Shown here: positions 35,169 through 45,327 of the stretch, in pieces
Numbering within the stretch: the first letter of the stretch is position 1
Layout: every line of letters begins with the position of its first letter
NCBI GenBank assembly: GCA_037176885.1
Contig: JAWWNJ010000059.1
Span: 558,001-622,000 of the forward strand
From: Favolaschia claudopus
Taxonomy: Eukaryota; Basidiomycota; Agaricomycetes; Agaricales; Mycenaceae
Direction: 5' to 3'
Length of the DNA: 64,000 bases
Program-made: the position numbers and the translations under genes
Notes under the pieces: model-generated
Databases searched by the model: none
Told to the model about the DNA's origin: nothing
Seen by the model: the letters and a program-made list of their open reading frames with translations, nothing else

Positions 35169-35905
35169 TACAGTCTTTCACCGGTCAATGAGACAAACAT
35201 TTTCACACATCGAATTATTAACGGACTCAGAGTTGAACAAACAGACTAAGGTGGTAGAAACATTGTAGCACTTGTCTAGAATGGTAATGCAAGTTCTCAG
35301 AGTTTTACCTCAATCAACGAGGGAGCTACACATTAAACGACACGAAACCGGTCTTCCCGTATCAATGAGACAAATGTCAATCACTACATCAAAAATGCCA
35401 TTCGAAGGATTTTCTGCGGATTTTCGGCCCAATCTGTTAAGGAACACACTTTTGCGACATTAGCCATCCGGTTTCCACTGAGTTTGAGCAAAAATGTGAA
35501 GAGATATAGGATTCGAAACGAAAGTTTGATGAGTTGCCTTTTTTGGGAAACACTCTGTCTTAGAACGCTGGGGCTGGTTAAAATAGTGCATTCTCAGCAC
35601 CTAGTGCCTAGCAACCTAGGAGGGTGCTCAAGCACTATCAGAGTATGTCTAGACAAATACGAAGCAATATCATCGTTGTTGAACATAATCATGGGCCGAT
35701 CAAAATTGACCTTTTTGACTTGCCTCAGTGCTCAAAGGTCTGGAGATGGCAAAAAGCATTCGATGACCTAGATAATGTATATACGCATGCAGGTGAGATG
35801 AACGAAGCCCTCCACCAAGTATCTAAGGTAAATCTTATGAATTGATGCCGCACGGGCCGTTTGTATCATTGACCGGTTTGTCTCATTGACCGGTGAAAGA
35901 CTGTA
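35169..35905. mobile_element. TA-flanked MITE at the LINE 5' junction
   Basis: A perfect 28-bp inverted repeat (CAGTCTTTCACCGGTCAATG.. at 35171-35198 and its complement at 35876-35903) lies between TA duplications. ACCGGT and GAGACAAA words recur near both ends. No gene is inside. It is inserted where the truncated LINE end meets the right direct repeat, after the LINE arrived. Confidence 0.93.
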
Positions 35906-36082
35906 TTCTCTCCGTTGCCCAGTGCCGCCGTCAGTGGCCGGAGCGCGGGGACCGGCGGACCGGTAATTCAAACTCCGCCGGTATCTGGATACCGGTATTT
36001 ACCACCGCCATCAGTATCGAGCCCAAATTTGAAACACGCACAAGCTGCCATGGCAGTGACGTGCACGTCACGTGCGATCGTC
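35904..36082 (+). repeat. Right copy of the long direct repeat
   Basis: Partner of 30679-30849 (179 bp against 171 bp). It continues into CTCAACTCTCATGG, while the left copy runs into poly-T, as expected if this is the downstream half of a target-site duplication. Confidence 0.9.
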
Positions 36083-36230
36083 CTCAACTCTCATGGAGCA
36101 TTCTAGACTCGCAGGCCAGTCGACGTACACTTCGGTCACAATCCGAGAGGGAGGGACTATTTAGGAAGGAGGGAAAACATCACGACAAACAATGATGAGA
36201 ACAGTGATGAAGGGTAACCTCGTGTACGGA

Positions 36231-36312
36231 CTGGACCCGCATGTCGCATGTTTCGGTGATGGATTTTCGTCCCGCCATCTCAGAGGCTCGACTTAGAAAA
36301 AACACGTCGGAA
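36231..36312 (+). repeat. Left terminal inverted repeat of the DUF6589/RecQ unit
   Basis: It starts CTGGACCCGCATGTCGC and includes GATGGATTTTCG, CCCGCCAT, TCAGAGGCT and GACTTAGAAAAAAC. It lies about 165 bp beyond the DUF6589 stop codon. Confidence 0.85.
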
Positions 36313-36477
36313 CTGTATCGAGAAGAATTTCTGTATCGTCCAAATTGGGGATGACATGTGGCAGTGCAAATGGATCAATCCGAGGCATATGCGCATGAGG
36401 CAACAAACACTTCGACTTCAACGCGTCGTGGCACCCGCTCTCCACTGTAAACTAAGAACATGCTAAGGCTAAAGCTG

Positions 36478-39400
36478 CTAGTCGTCCTCGTCATCGTCAC
36501 TGTCCAAATCAGAATCTGAGTCGTCTTCCTCACTCTCCCCACCATCAAGATCCCACTCCGGAATACCATCGATATCCAGCTCAACATCGCGCTCTTCAAA
36601 TCTGGTCAGCGTCGGTGAATCTGCAAGCATGTCCTCTTCGTTTTCTTGCTCCTCGTCGCTCTCGTCGCCACCGTTGTTTTGTGATTCTGGCCAAGGCAAC
36701 TCAGGGAACTCGTCATCAGATCCCGCGGAAGCATTTTCGGTGACACCGCTTTCGACAGTCGGCGTTTGTGCATCATCGCGAACGTCGAGGAGCGGCAAAA
36801 GGTCAGCAACAGGGGTCAGATGCCGCCGTTTCCGGAGGCTCTCAAATTGCTCGTTGAACTCGGCAAGTGGTGTTGTCGATGTTCCGTGGGTTAACGCCGC
36901 CATACCCACCGAGATAACATCCGGCACAGGTTTTTCGTCATCGTCCAGAACCCGCCCCTCCTTCTCAACGTATACCTCGTGTTCGTTCAGGCTAGCCATG
37001 AGTGCAGCGATATCGGCCGCGAGGTCCGGAGTCGCGTGTTTCGATCCTTGACGGTTTCCAAGCTCAACATTCATTCGGTTTGCGAGCTGCCGCAAGATAT
37101 CGACACACGGCGATACAAGTGCGAGCCAATCCCATGAGTGGCCTGCTCCATCCGCCTTGTATATTTTCTGAAACTCTATATTAGGGCACAACAGTCTCCG
37201 GCGCGATTCGGACTCGCCTTGATCCAGAAGTTGAGATGTTCTTGTACCAAGTCTATCTCAACGAAGGCTTTAATCTTTCCCTGCGGGTTTGCGAGCCAGT
37301 TTTGGAGGACAATATATCTTGGACACGGTCAGTGCCATTTTCAAATTGCGTCAAATTTCGTGGGCTTACCGGAGTTCATTTGTCCAGACACATATCAGGT
37401 TATGCAAAATATGCAGCATCTCGTGAGCATATTTGGTGCGTCCGTTACCTCGATATGAAAATGCCCACAGTCGCAGGATGATAACAATACGCCCAGAATC
37501 ACCGCTCTTGATTGCGTCCGCAAATTCGCGGGTCAGCAACGCGTCGCGCAGAAACAGCACGGCATTTTCGAACACCATGTCACCCTTCCGAATGTGAGGC
37601 AGCCGCTCGGAGGGAGTCTCCGATGATTTCTGTCCTTTCTTGGTCGCCTTTGCTGCAAATTCCCGGGCCCGTTCTTCTGGAATCCGACGTTCACGAAGCT
37701 CCTGGACACGATCAACGTCGGTATAAGTTTTATATATTTCTTCCGCATGTTTGATGAGTGTCTGCCAGCTGTCGATTGAAGCGGCGCAGTCCTCGAGTGA
37801 GTCGTGCCCGGACACAAGGAGCAGGCAGTGTAACACACGCGCGTAGAGTGACACCATGATCAAGTCCCGGCAGGTTCGGAATGGTGGAAGCGAGGTAAGT
37901 GTAATTGGCAGCCGGTCCAGGACAGAGTTATGAAAACCCAGACTACCAGGACTTCGCGCGCCTGCAGACGGCTTCCCGAAATGTGTTTCGAGCACGCCGT
38001 GGCAGTCTGCAATTTTCGCGTGAAACAATCCTGGCATCAACACTATGTGCCGCCAGGAATGGGGACCGCTTTCATGACCCAAACGTACATTCAATATTGA
38101 GCGCTGCCGTGCAATCGTTAACTGATCGCCAGCAATGATCTGCACGTATTTGCCATATTCGGGGTCGTCCGGTTTGAAGCCAAGGACGCGCATAATCTCC
38201 TCAACAACCTCAACGTTGCCCGTAATAGAACTTTCGTCGATTTCCATCGCCGGCAGCGGATGGAGGGGTGTTTTGTGGACTTCGATGACATCGTCGCTTA
38301 CGGGTTGGGACGCATCTAGGTCTTTGCGCCATCGTTCAAAGCCTTCGCCACCGTGAAGAACGACTATGCGAAGAATGGTATGCACCATGTTTTTCGTCAG
38401 AAAAGTGGACTCTTCTTGATTCAGCATGATGTCTTCCAAGGTCAGGGGCCGTGCATTCAATATCGAGGCATCAAGGCTTGCCGTCAACATATGCTCGAGT
38501 TTCGCATTGTGGAGTGGGATGAGAGTGGCGCATGTGCCGTTTTCTTGCGCGCCTAAATACTTCATGTGTGAGTCCCTTGCGTTACAATAGTGTCAAAACT
38601 CACTCTTGCGCCCCAGAATTTGTTCCGCAATACGATTCATTAGATTGATGTTGTCGTAAGTCAGCAGTGAAAGGTTCGACTTTGCGAGTGAGCGCGCTGT
38701 GGCCATGCAAGCATCCCGCAGCACACTGAGTAGTCCAGGGCCTCGAACCCGCTTAGGTTTGGTTTTCTTTGTGCGCTTCTTTTTCTTCTTCTGCTTTTGT
38801 ATGGCTGGCACGCCTGGAGCGTCATCCACTCCATCCAAGCTTTCTCCAGCGTCCTGAGATGTGCTCAGTTTCATTCCAGTTCGCATGCGAGCTTTCACAT
38901 ACCGTCTTCTCCGTCTCAGTTTGGTGGCGATCACTCGCTCCGAAGACACTTGAAATGATGCTTGTATAGCCAATCGAGAACCCATACACCCCGAGCACTG
39001 GAAAGTGTTGACGCTGTGCCCCAGTAGCCGCAAGGTACATGCCGTTCACTGCTTGGGCATAATTATTGTTCTGGCTGGCTCCACGCAGTAAGGTGAGTGC
39101 GGCTGCCCCTTTCATCTGATGATACGTTAAACTATGCCGACAGAGGTAATGTGTTTACTTGCGAGTTCTTTCTTGGCCAGAAATTTTTCCGTGGCACTCT
39201 TCAGTTGACGAGTTGTTGTCGAGAAACTGTCGAAGACTCGAAACACCGTTGGAGCCATGCCGCGGATGGTGTGCGCAAGGTTGGCAAGACTGAAATCAAT
39301 GAAGAAACGTTCATTAACGGCCTTCTTCGTCTTATTCAGAATGCCCGATTGTGTTATGGCTCGGGATTCAGTGAAGACCACCCGGGACACATGGTTCGTT

Positions 39401-40175
39401 GCCCAGTTGTGCAGAAAGCTCCGCGTTGTCTGATTGTATCTTGATGTAGTCCAGTACCCAAAGATGCGCTCGACGATAGTCTGGTGGGCAAAAAAACCGC
39501 GCCAACGCCAATCTGAATTCAATTGGGTCTCAGGATTGAAGACGTGATCAAGAAACTCTGCGAGCGATATGTCGTTCTCTTTCATCTCCTTCAAGAAATC
39601 ATCGAACATCTTTAGCGTAACGGGGTGTGTCAAGACTCATCCACCATTATGATATTCCTGTTACTGACCTGATTACGGCGAAGTCTTCTCTTCTCTTTTT
39701 CAAGCTCGGCACGCTTCTCTGCCTCCAGCCGTTGCACATTTGCATTATCTGCCTTCAAGATTGTCATAAGAATGGTCGGGTCAGTCAAAGCTTGACTCAA
39801 TACCTTCTGTTCACGGTTCAGTAGACGGCTCTTCTGGCGCTGCTGCTCCGCTCTTTGACGCAAGATGAGCCGTTCCTTGCGCGGGGTAAATATAATGTCA
39901 TCGCTGGTGGGGTGCTCGGCACTAATGTCAACGTCGTCCGGGGAATTTTGGGGAGGCACAGAAGATCCTCGCTGCCGTTGTCTCAATTGAGGGGCTGAAG
40001 ACTCGATTCCGAGCAAAGAGGTGAGCGCGGGCATTTTTTCGGTAGGTGTTGCTTCCTCTGTCTCAGAATCGCTCGACAAAGGGTCTGGCGGGTCAGAAGG
40101 AGGTAACACCTCAACATCTGTGTCAATTTCAGACGAAAGGATGGTCCAGCGGTTAGATCGCTTTTGTCGCATCAT
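36478..40175 (-). CDS. DUF6589 domain protein, seven exons, candidate transposase
   Basis: Exons: 40175-39669, 39609-39159, 39102-38903, 38853-38604, 38552-37370, 37317-37218 and 37167-36478. Phases agree throughout, giving 1126 residues without a stop. The N-terminus (to about 170) is Ser/Pro-rich, then a charged coiled-coil-like stretch (EKRAELEKEKRRLRRNQ). Residues about 170-470 hold LSLLTYDNINLMNRIAEQIL and an all-Lys insert. The DUF6589 core includes QENGTCATLIPLHNA, AGDQLTIARQRS (about 610), WRHIVLMPGLFHAKIADCHG, LWAFSYRGNGRTKYAHEMLH and DLVQEHLNFWIK (about 890). An acidic Asp/Glu/Ser tail follows. The function of DUF6589 is not established to my knowledge. Conserved acids in GDQLT, ADCHG and VQEHLN could form a DDE-type site (inference). 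The intron at 37217-37168 starts GC rather than GT. Confidence 0.88.
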
Positions 40176-40224
40176 GGGAGGTAGGCAAAAAAACGTGATC
40201 ACCGCCTTTCTCTTTTAGTCTAAT
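40176..40224. promoter_or_regulatory. Shared bidirectional promoter and leaders
   Basis: Only 49 bp separate the DUF6589 ATG (40175) from the helicase ATG (40225). The gap contains CTTTCTCTTTTAG just before the helicase ATG, which could be a pyrimidine-rich leader or an acceptor site. Such a small gap means that the two transcripts must start inside each other's coding region or use introns upstream. Co-expression is inferred. Confidence 0.45.
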
Positions 40225-43108
40225 ATGTCGGGTGCAGCAACATCTCGCAATAACGCTCAGAAAAAACGTACTCGGACGACCACTCATCGCTCTGATGAAG
40301 AGCTCTTGGCTCTGAGGGAAGAGCTCAAGCTTTTGCCGGGGCTGATACGCGCACATTACACCAAGTGGACTGCCGGAGCAAAAGACTTTCAATTGGAATG
40401 CATGGAGGGTCAGATATTAGGGGAGGAGATTCTATTACATGCAGCGACCGGCGCTGGGAAGACAGGGATAGCGGCGGGGCCACATCTATTGCCGTCAAGT
40501 AGGGGCAAGGTGACTCTGATGGTATCCCCACTCCTTTCCCTCCACGACGAGCAGGTGAGCCACATCAGTGTTTCTTTGAGTGCAAGTCCCTCATCTACTT
40601 CAAGGTGCTCACCTTCCGAAACGAGTTCGGACTGAAGGCTACTGCAATCAATAGCTCCAATGGTGGTTGTACCAAGGAGGTTCTGCAGGTATTTCAGTCA
40701 GCTGTAGCTTGTACCTCAGCTCAAGATCCTTCAGAAAGTGGTCTCAGGGGAATGGCAGATTGTCATGCTTTCTCCTGAAATGCTCCTATCACGCCAATTT
40801 GTAGATGGTGTCTTGCGCAAGTCGGACTTTGGGTCTCGCTGTCTCTCGGTCTTCATTGATGAGGCTCATTGTATCTCCCATTGGGGAGCCTCATTTCGGA
40901 AGAAGTATGCCTCGATCGGCCTAATTCGAGCTTTTCTCCCTCGTTGTGTCTCCATCATTGCGGTGACAGCCACTCTCACCCCTCGAGTTCGCGACGACTT
41001 GGTCTCCAAGCTTCACTTCAATCGGCACACATACATGTACCGCACTATAGGCAATGATCGTCCCAACGTGTCCATGGTGATTCGTTCCATGGAGCATGCC
41101 GCAAATTCATACCGAGACATTGACTTTGTCGTTCCCGAAGACAATCAAGTCCCAGCAGATATCAAACTTTCTTTTGTCTATACTGACGACATCAAGGATG
41201 GCGGACAGTTGGTAGACCACCTCAATGCTCGGGTACACCCCAGATACCGCGATCGAGGACTCGTACGCCCATATAATGCCGGGATGTCCCGAGAATATCG
41301 TGCGCATGTAATGTCCCTGTTCAGGGCTGGTGTTATTCGGGTTCTTGTGTGTACCGATGCAGCAGGAATGGTTAGCTCATTTTTTGCATCTCGATATTCT
41401 TACTGAAGTTTATGTCCTGCTAGGGCTGCGATCTGCCGGACATCGCGCTTGTTGTGCAATGGAAGATACCGCAAACTCTCTCTGCATGGATACAAAACGT
41501 GCAGGCCGAGCTGCACGCCGCGCAGGTATGCAGGGACTGGCGGTAATGCTTGCAGAAAAATCCGCTTTCGAAATCAATCCTGTCGCTGACATAACAGTCG
41601 TGGCAACTGCACAATCGTCCAGTCGCGGGCGTGGAGGCAGAGGCCGAGGCCGAGGTCGTGGTGGGCGCGGGGGCCGTGGTGGAGACAAGCAAGGTCGGGA
41701 CTACGCTATTCTGCACGGGCAGAAGCGAGGATCTTTCAAAGGATCTGATGACGCTGTACCTCCCCGAGATGAGCACACTATCGCGGACAATATGCCGCGC
41801 GAAGGTATTTATATGTTGATACAGGCCACCATATGCCGCCGCGTCATTCTTGGGCCAATTTTACAGAACCCAATTCACAGTGGGCGGTTACTTTTCTCGG
41901 TGTACATTGCCGCTAATCGGACGATCTTAGAAGTTCCTCCAGCGCAATGCTGTGACATCTGCAACCCCAAGCTATTTGATCAAGTCCGTCCCAGTCGACC
42001 TGTACGAGCCAGTCGTCAGAAAGGCATACGAAAGGGTCCTCCAGTCGACAGCGTAAGGGACGCCCTGTTTCTTTGGCGGCGGAATATATTGAAGTCACGT
42101 TATCCGGCCCGCTATTTTGCGGCGAATGCAATTCTGGACGACGCTACATGCGAGCTGCTCGCTTCAGTGGGCCCAATCGATGCTATTGAGACTCTACAAC
42201 AGCTTTTAGGGTCATCCTGGTCGCGTTGGGGGGAACTGGGCCAAGAATTGTTTGTTTATATGAAGGGGCTTGATATTCCTGCCCTTCCACCTCCGCCCTC
42301 GCGACAGAAAAAGCCAGCTTCTGTTCTACACTCTATTCCTGGCTCAGCTGCATCGTCTACGCTACCCCCTCCTCTTCCCACAACCCCTCGCTCTCCCACT
42401 GTGACAAATCCTCGAAAACGACCGTCTACATCGCGGGATCTATCTGTGGGTGAAGGGCCGCCAGCAGCCACTCGTGTTCGGCTAAATCATGCATCCCCAA
42501 CACCACACGCACCTCAGTACATCAATTCGTTGCCGGTCAATAGCCGCCTTACTCATGCCGGAACCTCTGTCCCTGTGGCACACACTCCAATTATACCCCG
42601 ACCACGGCCTACGCCACTCTTCAACGGCAATGGTGTGCATGCAGCACTTGCTGCGCATCAACCGCCGTCGTTCCTCACCCCGTCTCGTCCCCGTCCAACA
42701 GTTTCCCCCATACCACAAACAGCCACAGTCCCTTCGCTATCACATCAAAATTTCCATCCCTTTCCTCTACCCACTACTCCTCTCCCTTCCTCTGCATACA
42801 ACACCCCGACAAATCATATGCATACCCCCGTTAATTTGACTCAGAACTACCCAACGCCGCCCCAATACCATTCGTCACCTTATCATCACACTGTGCATTC
42901 TCCGAGCCCATTTTACAACCCTTACACCCCATACACCCCGATCCCTATGCCTCCCAATATGCCTGGGGCTCACTTGCATAATCCATACACTCGGTTCTAC
43001 CCTACGCCGCCTGCAACGATGCCGCCGTCGATGCGAGCGTCGTACAGTAGCCAGTCCTTTGAACACAGCCACAACCTTCCTAATTTAGAAGACCCGCCGC
43101 CGCGATAG
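40225..43108 (+). CDS. RecQ-like ATP-dependent DNA helicase
   Basis: Exons 40225-40554, 40605-40688, 40735-41370 and 41424 to the stop 43106-43108. A further in-frame 51-nt intron is possible at 41880-41930. Motifs: FQLECMEGQ (Q/motif 0), AATGAGKT (Walker A, about 73-80), TLMVSPLLSL, VFIDEAHCISHWG (DEAH box, about 180-183), VTATLTPRV, VLVCTDAAGMGCDLPD and, in the next frame, RAGRAARRAG (motif VI). A CRR..CCDIC group resembles the RecQ zinc site. The long C-terminus has an RG-rich stretch (SRGRGGRGRGRGRGG) and a Pro-rich tail. RecQ enzymes unwind 3'-5' DNA (family knowledge). Motif VI is reached only by a one-base shift at the AAAA run 41494-41497, which is either real damage or a homopolymer error. 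The gene lies inside the inverted repeats with DUF6589. Confidence 0.85.
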
Positions 43109-43317
43109 TTTTGCGCATCGAATTTACCCTCATATACAACACAGTGTTACTTTCAACTCATCTATAGCGTAGAACAACATATATCCCTTCAAATTCATGC
43201 ACGGAAACTTGTAGTTTATACTGAAATTGGACAAAAATGGACTTTTTCCCCAATCGATAGAGAATCAAAAATAACCCACCTTTCAATAGGCAAGTTGAGA
43301 ACGAATTTCTGAAGGTC

Positions 43318-43398
43318 TTCGACGCGTTTTTTCTAAGTCAAGCCTCTGAAATGGCGGGGCGAAAATCCATCTGTCAAACGGGCGACATGGGGTCCCAG
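43318..43398 (-). repeat. Right terminal inverted repeat of the DUF6589/RecQ unit
   Basis: Read on the minus strand it starts CTGGGACCCCATGTCGCC and follows the same series of blocks as the left repeat. It lies about 210 bp beyond the helicase stop and 138 bp before the next gene. Confidence 0.85.
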
Positions 43399-43535
43399 CC
43401 GGTTCCGGTCTTTGCTTGAGTGTTACGATGGCATCATGTCACACCGGACCGGCTGGTTTACGAGCCTAGGAGCATTCATACGTTGCGATTCCGCCCACTG
43501 CGTTTGTGGGCCTATCCTGTATTTATTGCAACAAG

Positions 43536-45327
43536 ATGGCTGAACCCCATGACTCCGGAATCCCTCGACTTTTGTCTAGGTGCAATCGTTGCCGAAGAGT
43601 TTGGTATTGCAACTCGGGTAAGGCGTTTCATCCATATTTCATCTTCCCCAACCAATCAGGGCTTCAATGCCACAGATTGCCAAAAGGTATGTGCACCTTT
43701 GTTTCGGTATTCGCCAAGCTGGTCTTCCCGTATAGGCCCACCACAGCGAACATAAACTTTTCTGCAGAACAATACACTCCGTTGACACCTCAAACGACCC
43801 TGAAGTCATTCAGCAATTACTTCGTCCTTTTGGTTTAACTCCAAATGCCACAACACGTTTGGATGAGATTAGCGTGCTTCACAGGTGTCAGATAATTGAC
43901 CTCTACCAGCGGAAAAGGTAAGGTGACCTGTTTACCTCTTTGTGGACAACACGACAATACGCCAAACCCAGGCCCCTCAACAAAGCCGAACTTTATCTGC
44001 TTTCCTGCGAGCCTCGGTGTCTCGGCTGGTAAGCGTTGTCGAGACTTTCCACGCATGCAGTTCACAATCAAGTCAGTGCAAAAACTGATAACGTCCTTCG
44101 AACGGAGGCCAATCTATCGGGGCAGGGCAGAGCGCAAACCCTCAAGCCTTGTCCACGCTGCATGATGGTGTTCTTCTGTGACGATCACCGCTCTTCCGAG
44201 GCTGATCTTCATCGTGAAACTTCGTCTGATAATGGGTTGGCCTCTGAGTGCAATCTCAGTCGTCAGATACGTCTAGACTCCGAATTTCGCCTCCTAATGC
44301 CTTCCCCGCACTTACATATGTGGCAATTCATTCCTCGCCAAGATATCTGGACTTCCCTCAAAGGCTTATCGTGGGACGACACATTAAGTGCGCCGATCAG
44401 AGCCGCATTGCCGACCAATACTTCTGTGGAGCACCTCGCGAGTTGCCTCAGGCTAGTGTCATGTCTTGCCAGCACAGTGATGACTGTGCTGTATGCCCTT
44501 GAGGTTTCCCTTGGCCCGACTGTCGATTCTTGTTCAACACTCACCATACATGTGACAGTTGTTACATCCCCGAAGTCGAATTTCTAACGTTATTCACATA
44601 GGTCCTTGGAGCAAGGGCGGAGTTTACATTGGCTGTCGCTTATATGTATGAGGTCATACTCCACCGTCTACCTAACGTCAAGAACCTCCATGTGCGAGTT
44701 CCTGACACATCATCACTGGCGCTGACTTTTACCAGATCTTGTTCTGCGATAATTTGGGAGGCAGCCAAGGTCATGTGGTCAAAGATGTGGTTCTTTGCAA
44801 GTGAGTTACTCGCTATGGAAAGTGATAGATAACATTCAACACCAGACCAGGGACTGTCGAAACAGTTCTGCTCACATGATTCATGACTACATTGATCAGT
44901 AAGTAACGTTTACTGCAAGCATGATTTGCGTACAATCCTTTCAATTTCGTAGTGCATATGTGAAACACCTTTCTCGGAGGAATGACTTCCAGGCTCCAGA
45001 CTTGTGTATCCTCATGAATGGATACATTGCCAATCATGAAACTGCCTTGTGGTCGGAGACAATCCGCTTGCTCCTTGAAAAGTCTGTTTACGGTACCTCC
45101 CCACAGCTTTCTTTCTTTTGATGGTTCTTTCCTTATTGTTTACATAGGCGAATGACGCATTGTATGCCCGGCGAGATTGCGACCTTTTACGCGGCTTAGG
45201 GGCACGTCTGATCTCCGGACTCACCTTGGCAAGCAATCCATGGGGCTCACTGGCGAGTGACTTGAATTTGGATACACTTTACGGCTTTTGTTCTGCCAAC
45301 AAGTGGCTAGTAGGCTGTTTCTCGTAG
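43536..45327 (+). CDS. MSS51-like protein with MYND zinc finger
   Basis: ATG 43536. Exon 1 (43536-43617), an 11-nt micro-exon (43676-43686) and exon 3 (43736-43917) together build a MYND finger: CNRCRRVWYCNSDCQ then HHSEHKLFC, matching C-x2-C..C-x3-C..H-x3-C. The third exon continues RTIHSVDTSNDPEVIQQL. After two more introns a second Cys cluster (CPRCMMVFFCDDH) appears, then SPHLHMWQFIPRQD, LTIH/VLGARAEFTLAVAY..ILHRLPNVK and DFQAPDLCILMNGYIA. The last exon (45149-45327) ends SNPWGSLASDL..YGFCSANKWLVGCFS. The C-terminal half follows the layout of the MSS51 C-terminal domain in fungal MYND proteins (recognition). Some internal joints (44820-45148) are approximate. It is probably a host gene, not part of the adjacent transposon. 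Confidence 0.72.

Follow-up and report, generated by a model that had tools for sequence, protein, structure and literature searches.

A degenerate DNA transposon, probably of the AcademH type, carries a DUF6589 gene and a RecQ-like helicase gene in Favolaschia claudopus

We analyzed a 64,000-nucleotide stretch of the genome of Favolaschia claudopus, an Agaricales species of the family Mycenaceae (contig JAWWNJ010000059.1, here C59, positions 558001-622000), hereafter the window, and searched the whole assembly (264.6 Mb, 460 contigs) for related loci. The window contains a transposon with two genes arranged head to head, one for a DUF6589 protein, likely a transposase, and one for a RecQ-like helicase, with assigned start codons 49 bp apart. 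In window coordinates, the features of this element are as follows.

36095-36103: left target site duplication GGAGCATTC, identical to 43469-43477 and single in four element-free related loci
36104-43468, no strand: whole transposon, 7365 bp, ends TAGACTCG...CGAGCCTA; homology between copies ends at these positions, with perfect 9-bp direct repeats immediately outside
36104-36124, plus strand: left terminal inverted repeat TAGACTCGCAGGCCAGTCGAC, 14/21 identical to the right end, ungapped
36226-36309, plus strand: left subterminal inverted repeat, 69/84 identical to 43320-43403
36478-40175, minus strand: DUF6589 gene (likely transposase), seven exons at 40175-39669, 39609-39163, 39115-38903, 38853-38604, 38552-37370, 37317-37218 and 37167-36478, splice sites from aligned copies
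40225-43108, plus strand: RecQ-like helicase gene, from DEAD, Helicase_C, recQ_fam, RecQ structures and the copy alignment; exons by eye at about 40225-40554, 40605-40688, 40735-41370 and 41424-43108
43320-43403, minus strand: right subterminal inverted repeat, 69/84 identical to 36226-36309
43448-43468, minus strand: right terminal inverted repeat TAGGCTCGTAAACCAGCCGGT, 14/21 identical to the left end, ungapped
43469-43477: right target site duplication GGAGCATTC, identical to the left 9-mer and single in four element-free related loci

An earlier note on this DNA had described inverted repeats enclosing both genes as terminal. The 84-bp repeats are real and form the only inverted pair of at least 20 nt that a repeat search found within 35500-44200; they are, however, subterminal. 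We rejected them as element ends because homology between copies extends outward beyond both, by 122 bases on the left and 65 bases on the right. The outward alignment of flanks, which the note had proposed for finding exact ends and a target duplication, placed the ends at 36104 and 43468, with a perfect 9-base GGAGCATTC on both sides. Terminal inverted repeats are present at the ends TAGACTCG/TAGGCTCG in addition to the subterminal pair, and the termini read TAGACTCGCAGG... on one side and TAGGCTCGTAAA... from the opposite side. In the outermost 100 bp, conservation was 93-96% across 12 copies on the left; on the right it was 0.71-0.77 in five rows, lowered by one row that was too short.

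The left subterminal repeat has 26 matches genome-wide. We took every repeat match outside the window's own pair, i.e., 18 stretches (L009-L026), and compared them with the window as 19 loci. Perfect 9-bp duplications were found at 11 of these, which represent 10 different sites: L009 (GCCAACGCC), L011 (CAATAGTAG), L012 and L019 (both AGAATACGC, the same site), L015 (ACCTTGGAT), L016 (ATTAAGGGT, read by eye from its flanks), L018 (GGGGTTCTA), L022 (ACTACTGGT), L024 (CCCCATCGG), L026 (GGTGGGCGT) and the window (GGAGCATTC). The probability that identical 9-mers adjoin the two ends by accident is about 4^-9 per site. The other eight loci showed no perfect 9-bp duplication. At six of them (L010, L013, L014, L020, L021, L025) one end is absent or disrupted; L017 and L023 have both ends, and their right flanks differ from those of their look-alikes L016 and L024.

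Seven other aligned copies are 66-78% identical to the window element across its length. The same gene pair and ends occur at five full-length sites (window, C73, C22, C141/C117, C26) with different flanks and different 9-bp duplications. Conserved flanks would have counted against the mobility assumed in the note; the flanks of full-length copies differ, except for L012 and L019. These two loci, on C141 and C117, have the same 9-mer and flanks and are 98.5% alike across 739 bp of left end and flank, which suggests that the assembly includes the two haplotypes or a large duplication. Five of the 11 loci with perfect duplications hold gene-less elements of 0.5-1.4 kb (L016, L018, L022 and L026 about 0.55 kb, L024 1.4 kb). 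As these keep both ends and are too short for the genes, we regard them as derivatives of the full element and not as an unrelated family of miniature inverted-repeat elements.

Element-free sites complement these data. Eight further genomic matches exist for the sequence to the right of the window element, and in each of the four that we read (C79, C195, C128, C38) the sequence CATGGAGCATTCATACG is found, with the 9-mer single and the element absent. On C128 and C38, the 9-mer also follows about 30 bp that match the left flank of the window element, and this homology on both sides directly demonstrates insertion and 9-bp duplication. On C79 and C195, the sequence left of the 9-mer differs from the left flank of the window element, and these sites therefore demonstrate right-hand continuity through the 9-mer only. 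The window element lies within the start of an open reading frame at 43469-43760 (ATGGAGCATTCATACG in element-free relatives), the product of which, by eye, reads like a cysteine-rich MYND-type zinc-finger protein; 91-98% relatives occur elsewhere in the genome. The left flank of the element (35504-36082) consists of dispersed repeats: three other contigs carry 35504-35906 at 99-100% identity, additional ones carry part of it, and another short repeat covers parts of about 35904-36082.

The spliced model of the minus-strand gene matches PF20231 (DUF6589) with E 1.2e-138, and minus-strand open reading frames also match this family in Pfam. As the note had proposed, the gene consists of seven exons, and aligned copies have their introns at the same positions; a deposited protein of 1136 residues (P0001, hypothetical protein R3P38DRAFT_3206790, Favolaschia claudopus) is 99% identical over the residues searched. 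Two transposase introns of the window copy, 39116-39162 and 37168-37217, as placed, seem to start with GC, not GT, and P0001 reads part of the former as coding. PF20231 is marked on all of the best 120 of 218 protein homologs, many being 'hypothetical proteins' from Mycena and other mushrooms. Our literature search found no mention of DUF6589, and PF20231 only in unrelated optics work; a search on Favolaschia and Mycena gave no title on such elements among the matches listed.

The DUF6589 profile gave chance-level matches only against PDB sequences, and in a Pfam scan of a 764-residue spliced piece nothing but DUF6589 reached the cut-off. The earlier note had suggested a structural comparison with RNase H-fold transposases: Hermes, P element and RAG1 were the best matches of the predicted model among those listed, but the Foldseek score was weak (E 0.018). 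Residues D463, D622 and E900 are conserved, and in the predicted secondary structure some strands resemble an RNase H core, while the last conserved acidic helix follows a long helical region. The DDE-transposase-like fold, with D463, D622 and E900 as its candidate residues, is a prediction and supports a transposase more weakly than do the ends, duplications, copies and selection.

On the opposite strand, Pfam identified DEAD and Helicase_C domains on plus-strand open reading frames. The NCBIfam model recQ_fam matched with E 6.7e-43, yet below its curated cut-off (147 versus 219.8 bits, for a piece of the protein), and the best PDB match was RecQ 4tmu (E 9.5e-27). The divergent DUF6589 and RecQ-like genes of the note are hence both confirmed, but the window copy has a broken helicase gene, with a frameshift in exon 4 relative to all six other copies spanning this part, near what we take to be helicase motif VI. 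Judged from its reading frame, the helicase of this copy is probably inactive, and with exon 4 out of frame the window element is probably not autonomous. An XPG nuclease marks AcademX transposons; we found no XPG domain in the eight open reading frame pieces and two spliced products scanned.

Both genes show purifying selection. Nei-Gojobori estimates from six pairs of copies, which share copies and are not independent, gave dN/dS of 0.04-0.07 for the largest transposase exon and of 0.03-0.04 for the main helicase exon (one of the six pairs not computable), with dS saturated in several pairs. In the pair C29-C141, where dS was unsaturated (0.55 transposase, 0.32 helicase), dN/dS was 0.04 and 0.03, respectively. 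These substitution patterns suggest that both proteins mattered while the copies spread. We consider it improbable that the element took up its helicase from the host as a passenger dispensable for transposition. Such a passenger would agree with the perfect duplications of the window copy despite its broken helicase, although the break may postdate insertion, and with short derivatives that move without coding for a helicase. Against it stand the low helicase dN/dS across copies and the listed helicase matches, some with as little as about 25% identity, next to at least 52 of the 86 DUF6589 loci.

These 86 loci were merged from 106 DUF6589 matches in the genome and compared with the best 150 of 292 helicase candidates. 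A listed helicase match lay within 6 kb of at least 52 loci, in divergent orientation at 10, convergent at 42 and tandem at none. As the helicase matches are the scored 150 of 292, the number of unpaired loci (34) is a maximum, and since many pairs are copies of each other, the counts are not independent. The 10 divergent loci, which make up the clade of the window element, are at least 52% identical to the window transposase exon along most of the aligned region; identity at the convergent loci is 22-50%, the 50% spanning just 46 residues, and a 50-residue piece of one unpaired locus, on C86, matches at 58%.

We read the ends of one convergent element, outside the window at C59:71286-76685. 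It has 175-bp inverted repeats (98% identical), starting TAGTCTC and ending GAGACTA, so that TAG-type ends are common to this one convergent type. Pairs lacking inverted repeats would have spoken against the earlier note; the one other pair whose ends were read has them. The convergent copies on C59 and C20, together with the transposase-side ends of C208 and C221, have the same right flank, which may reflect a single insertion copied along with the surrounding DNA. No target duplication was seen among these sequences. The divergent (end-transposase-helicase-end) and convergent (end-helicase-transposase-end) layouts are circular permutations of each other. The switch might have occurred by reopening of a circle of joined element ends, a form on which the helicase would act, but we hold this bold reading to be unlikely. 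The layouts could equally have come about through two inversions or through the pair having been assembled independently.

The window element is a real, well-delimited transposon. We propose, with high but not full confidence, that it is a degenerate copy of a two-gene AcademH-type DNA transposon with DUF6589 as its DDE transposase and the RecQ helicase as an accessory protein. The note's view of DUF6589 as a transposase and of the pair as a transposon finds support in the ends with their 9-bp duplications, in paralogous sites without the element, in dispersed copies, gene-less derivatives and purifying selection and, more weakly, in the predicted fold. A cut-and-paste mechanism would then be as follows. 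The RNase H-fold DUF6589 protein would bind to the TAG-type ends, the 84-bp subterminal repeats or both, excise the element and join it to the target strands at positions 9 bp from each other, which would produce the 9-bp duplications. Their length is compatible with ordinary staggered insertion by a DDE enzyme, and the replication- or unwinding-coupled mechanism considered in the note stays hypothetical. The divergent helicase would most likely unwind or process DNA at the ends or at gapped insertion joints. Short gene-less derivatives with both ends suggest that the ends suffice in cis.

The earlier note knew of no named superfamily with this gene pair, a statement that we have to correct. 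In PMC10045372, which cites Kojima 2020 (Mob DNA 11:15) for AcademH and AcademX, duplications of 9 or 10 bp for AcademH and 3 or 4 bp for AcademX are tied to an encoded helicase and nuclease, and AcademH was found in Basidiomycota according to PMC10799480. Academ is, moreover, listed among the superfamilies with DDD/E transposases in PMC9587614. The excerpts of PMC8290104, PMC12210899, PMC12730594 and PMC10294476 contained nothing on the helicase pair. Helicase, 9-bp duplications and basidiomycete host therefore fit AcademH as described in citing papers, and DUF6589 may be related to the Academ transposases. The element could instead belong to a distinct, unnamed superfamily that resembles AcademH merely through its helicase and duplications of about 9 bp. 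No Pfam, NCBIfam or PDB sequence profile ties DUF6589 to a named transposase, but helicase gene, duplication length and host all agree with AcademH as described in those papers, and we give this alternative a low probability.

Kolobok elements duplicate a 4-bp TTAA, in contrast to the 9 bp found here. KolobokH, which shares a fungal host and a RecQ helicase with the window element, has this helicase downstream of the transposase domain according to PMC9587614, and not head to head with the transposase gene on the opposite strand; we therefore disfavor a KolobokH element as very improbable. Two host genes caught by chance between copies of a short, unrelated inverted-repeat transposon, a reading to which the short gene-less elements with the same ends might lend some color, we reject as extremely improbable, given the 9-bp duplications, the recurrence of genes and ends at five full-length sites and related sites without the entire 7.4 kb.

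While the transposon class was known (AcademH, 2020), our analysis suggests a likely function for DUF6589, listed as unknown in Pfam, and adds two gene arrangements. Most homologs of this family would, by inference, be transposases, to be masked or annotated accordingly. With ends, a 9-bp rule, short derivatives and six copies without the helicase frameshift in one genome, the role of RecQ becomes directly testable. The two layouts are a tractable puzzle on how such elements rearrange.

Among known systems, hAT (Hermes) and P transposases ranked best in the structural comparison with the DUF6589 prediction, with RNase H-like strands and a helical stretch before the acidic helix in common. Yet hAT and P elements make 8-bp duplications and are not known to have a helicase gene, in contrast to 9 bp and a helicase here, and sequence identity between the proteins is 7-14%; by duplication length the element does not fit hAT. 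MuDR/MULE elements make duplications of about 9 bp, as found here, but the Pfam scan of the DUF6589 piece showed no MULE domain, and MULE is hence disfavored. AcademH, as described in the papers cited above, shares with the window element a superfamily 2 helicase beside the transposase, duplications of 9 or 10 bp and occurrence in Basidiomycota; terminal inverted repeats, another AcademH feature, are present here too, and the window-element products scanned agree in having no XPG domain. The gene order of the window element's clade is divergent, as opposed to the convergent order at the other paired loci in this genome.
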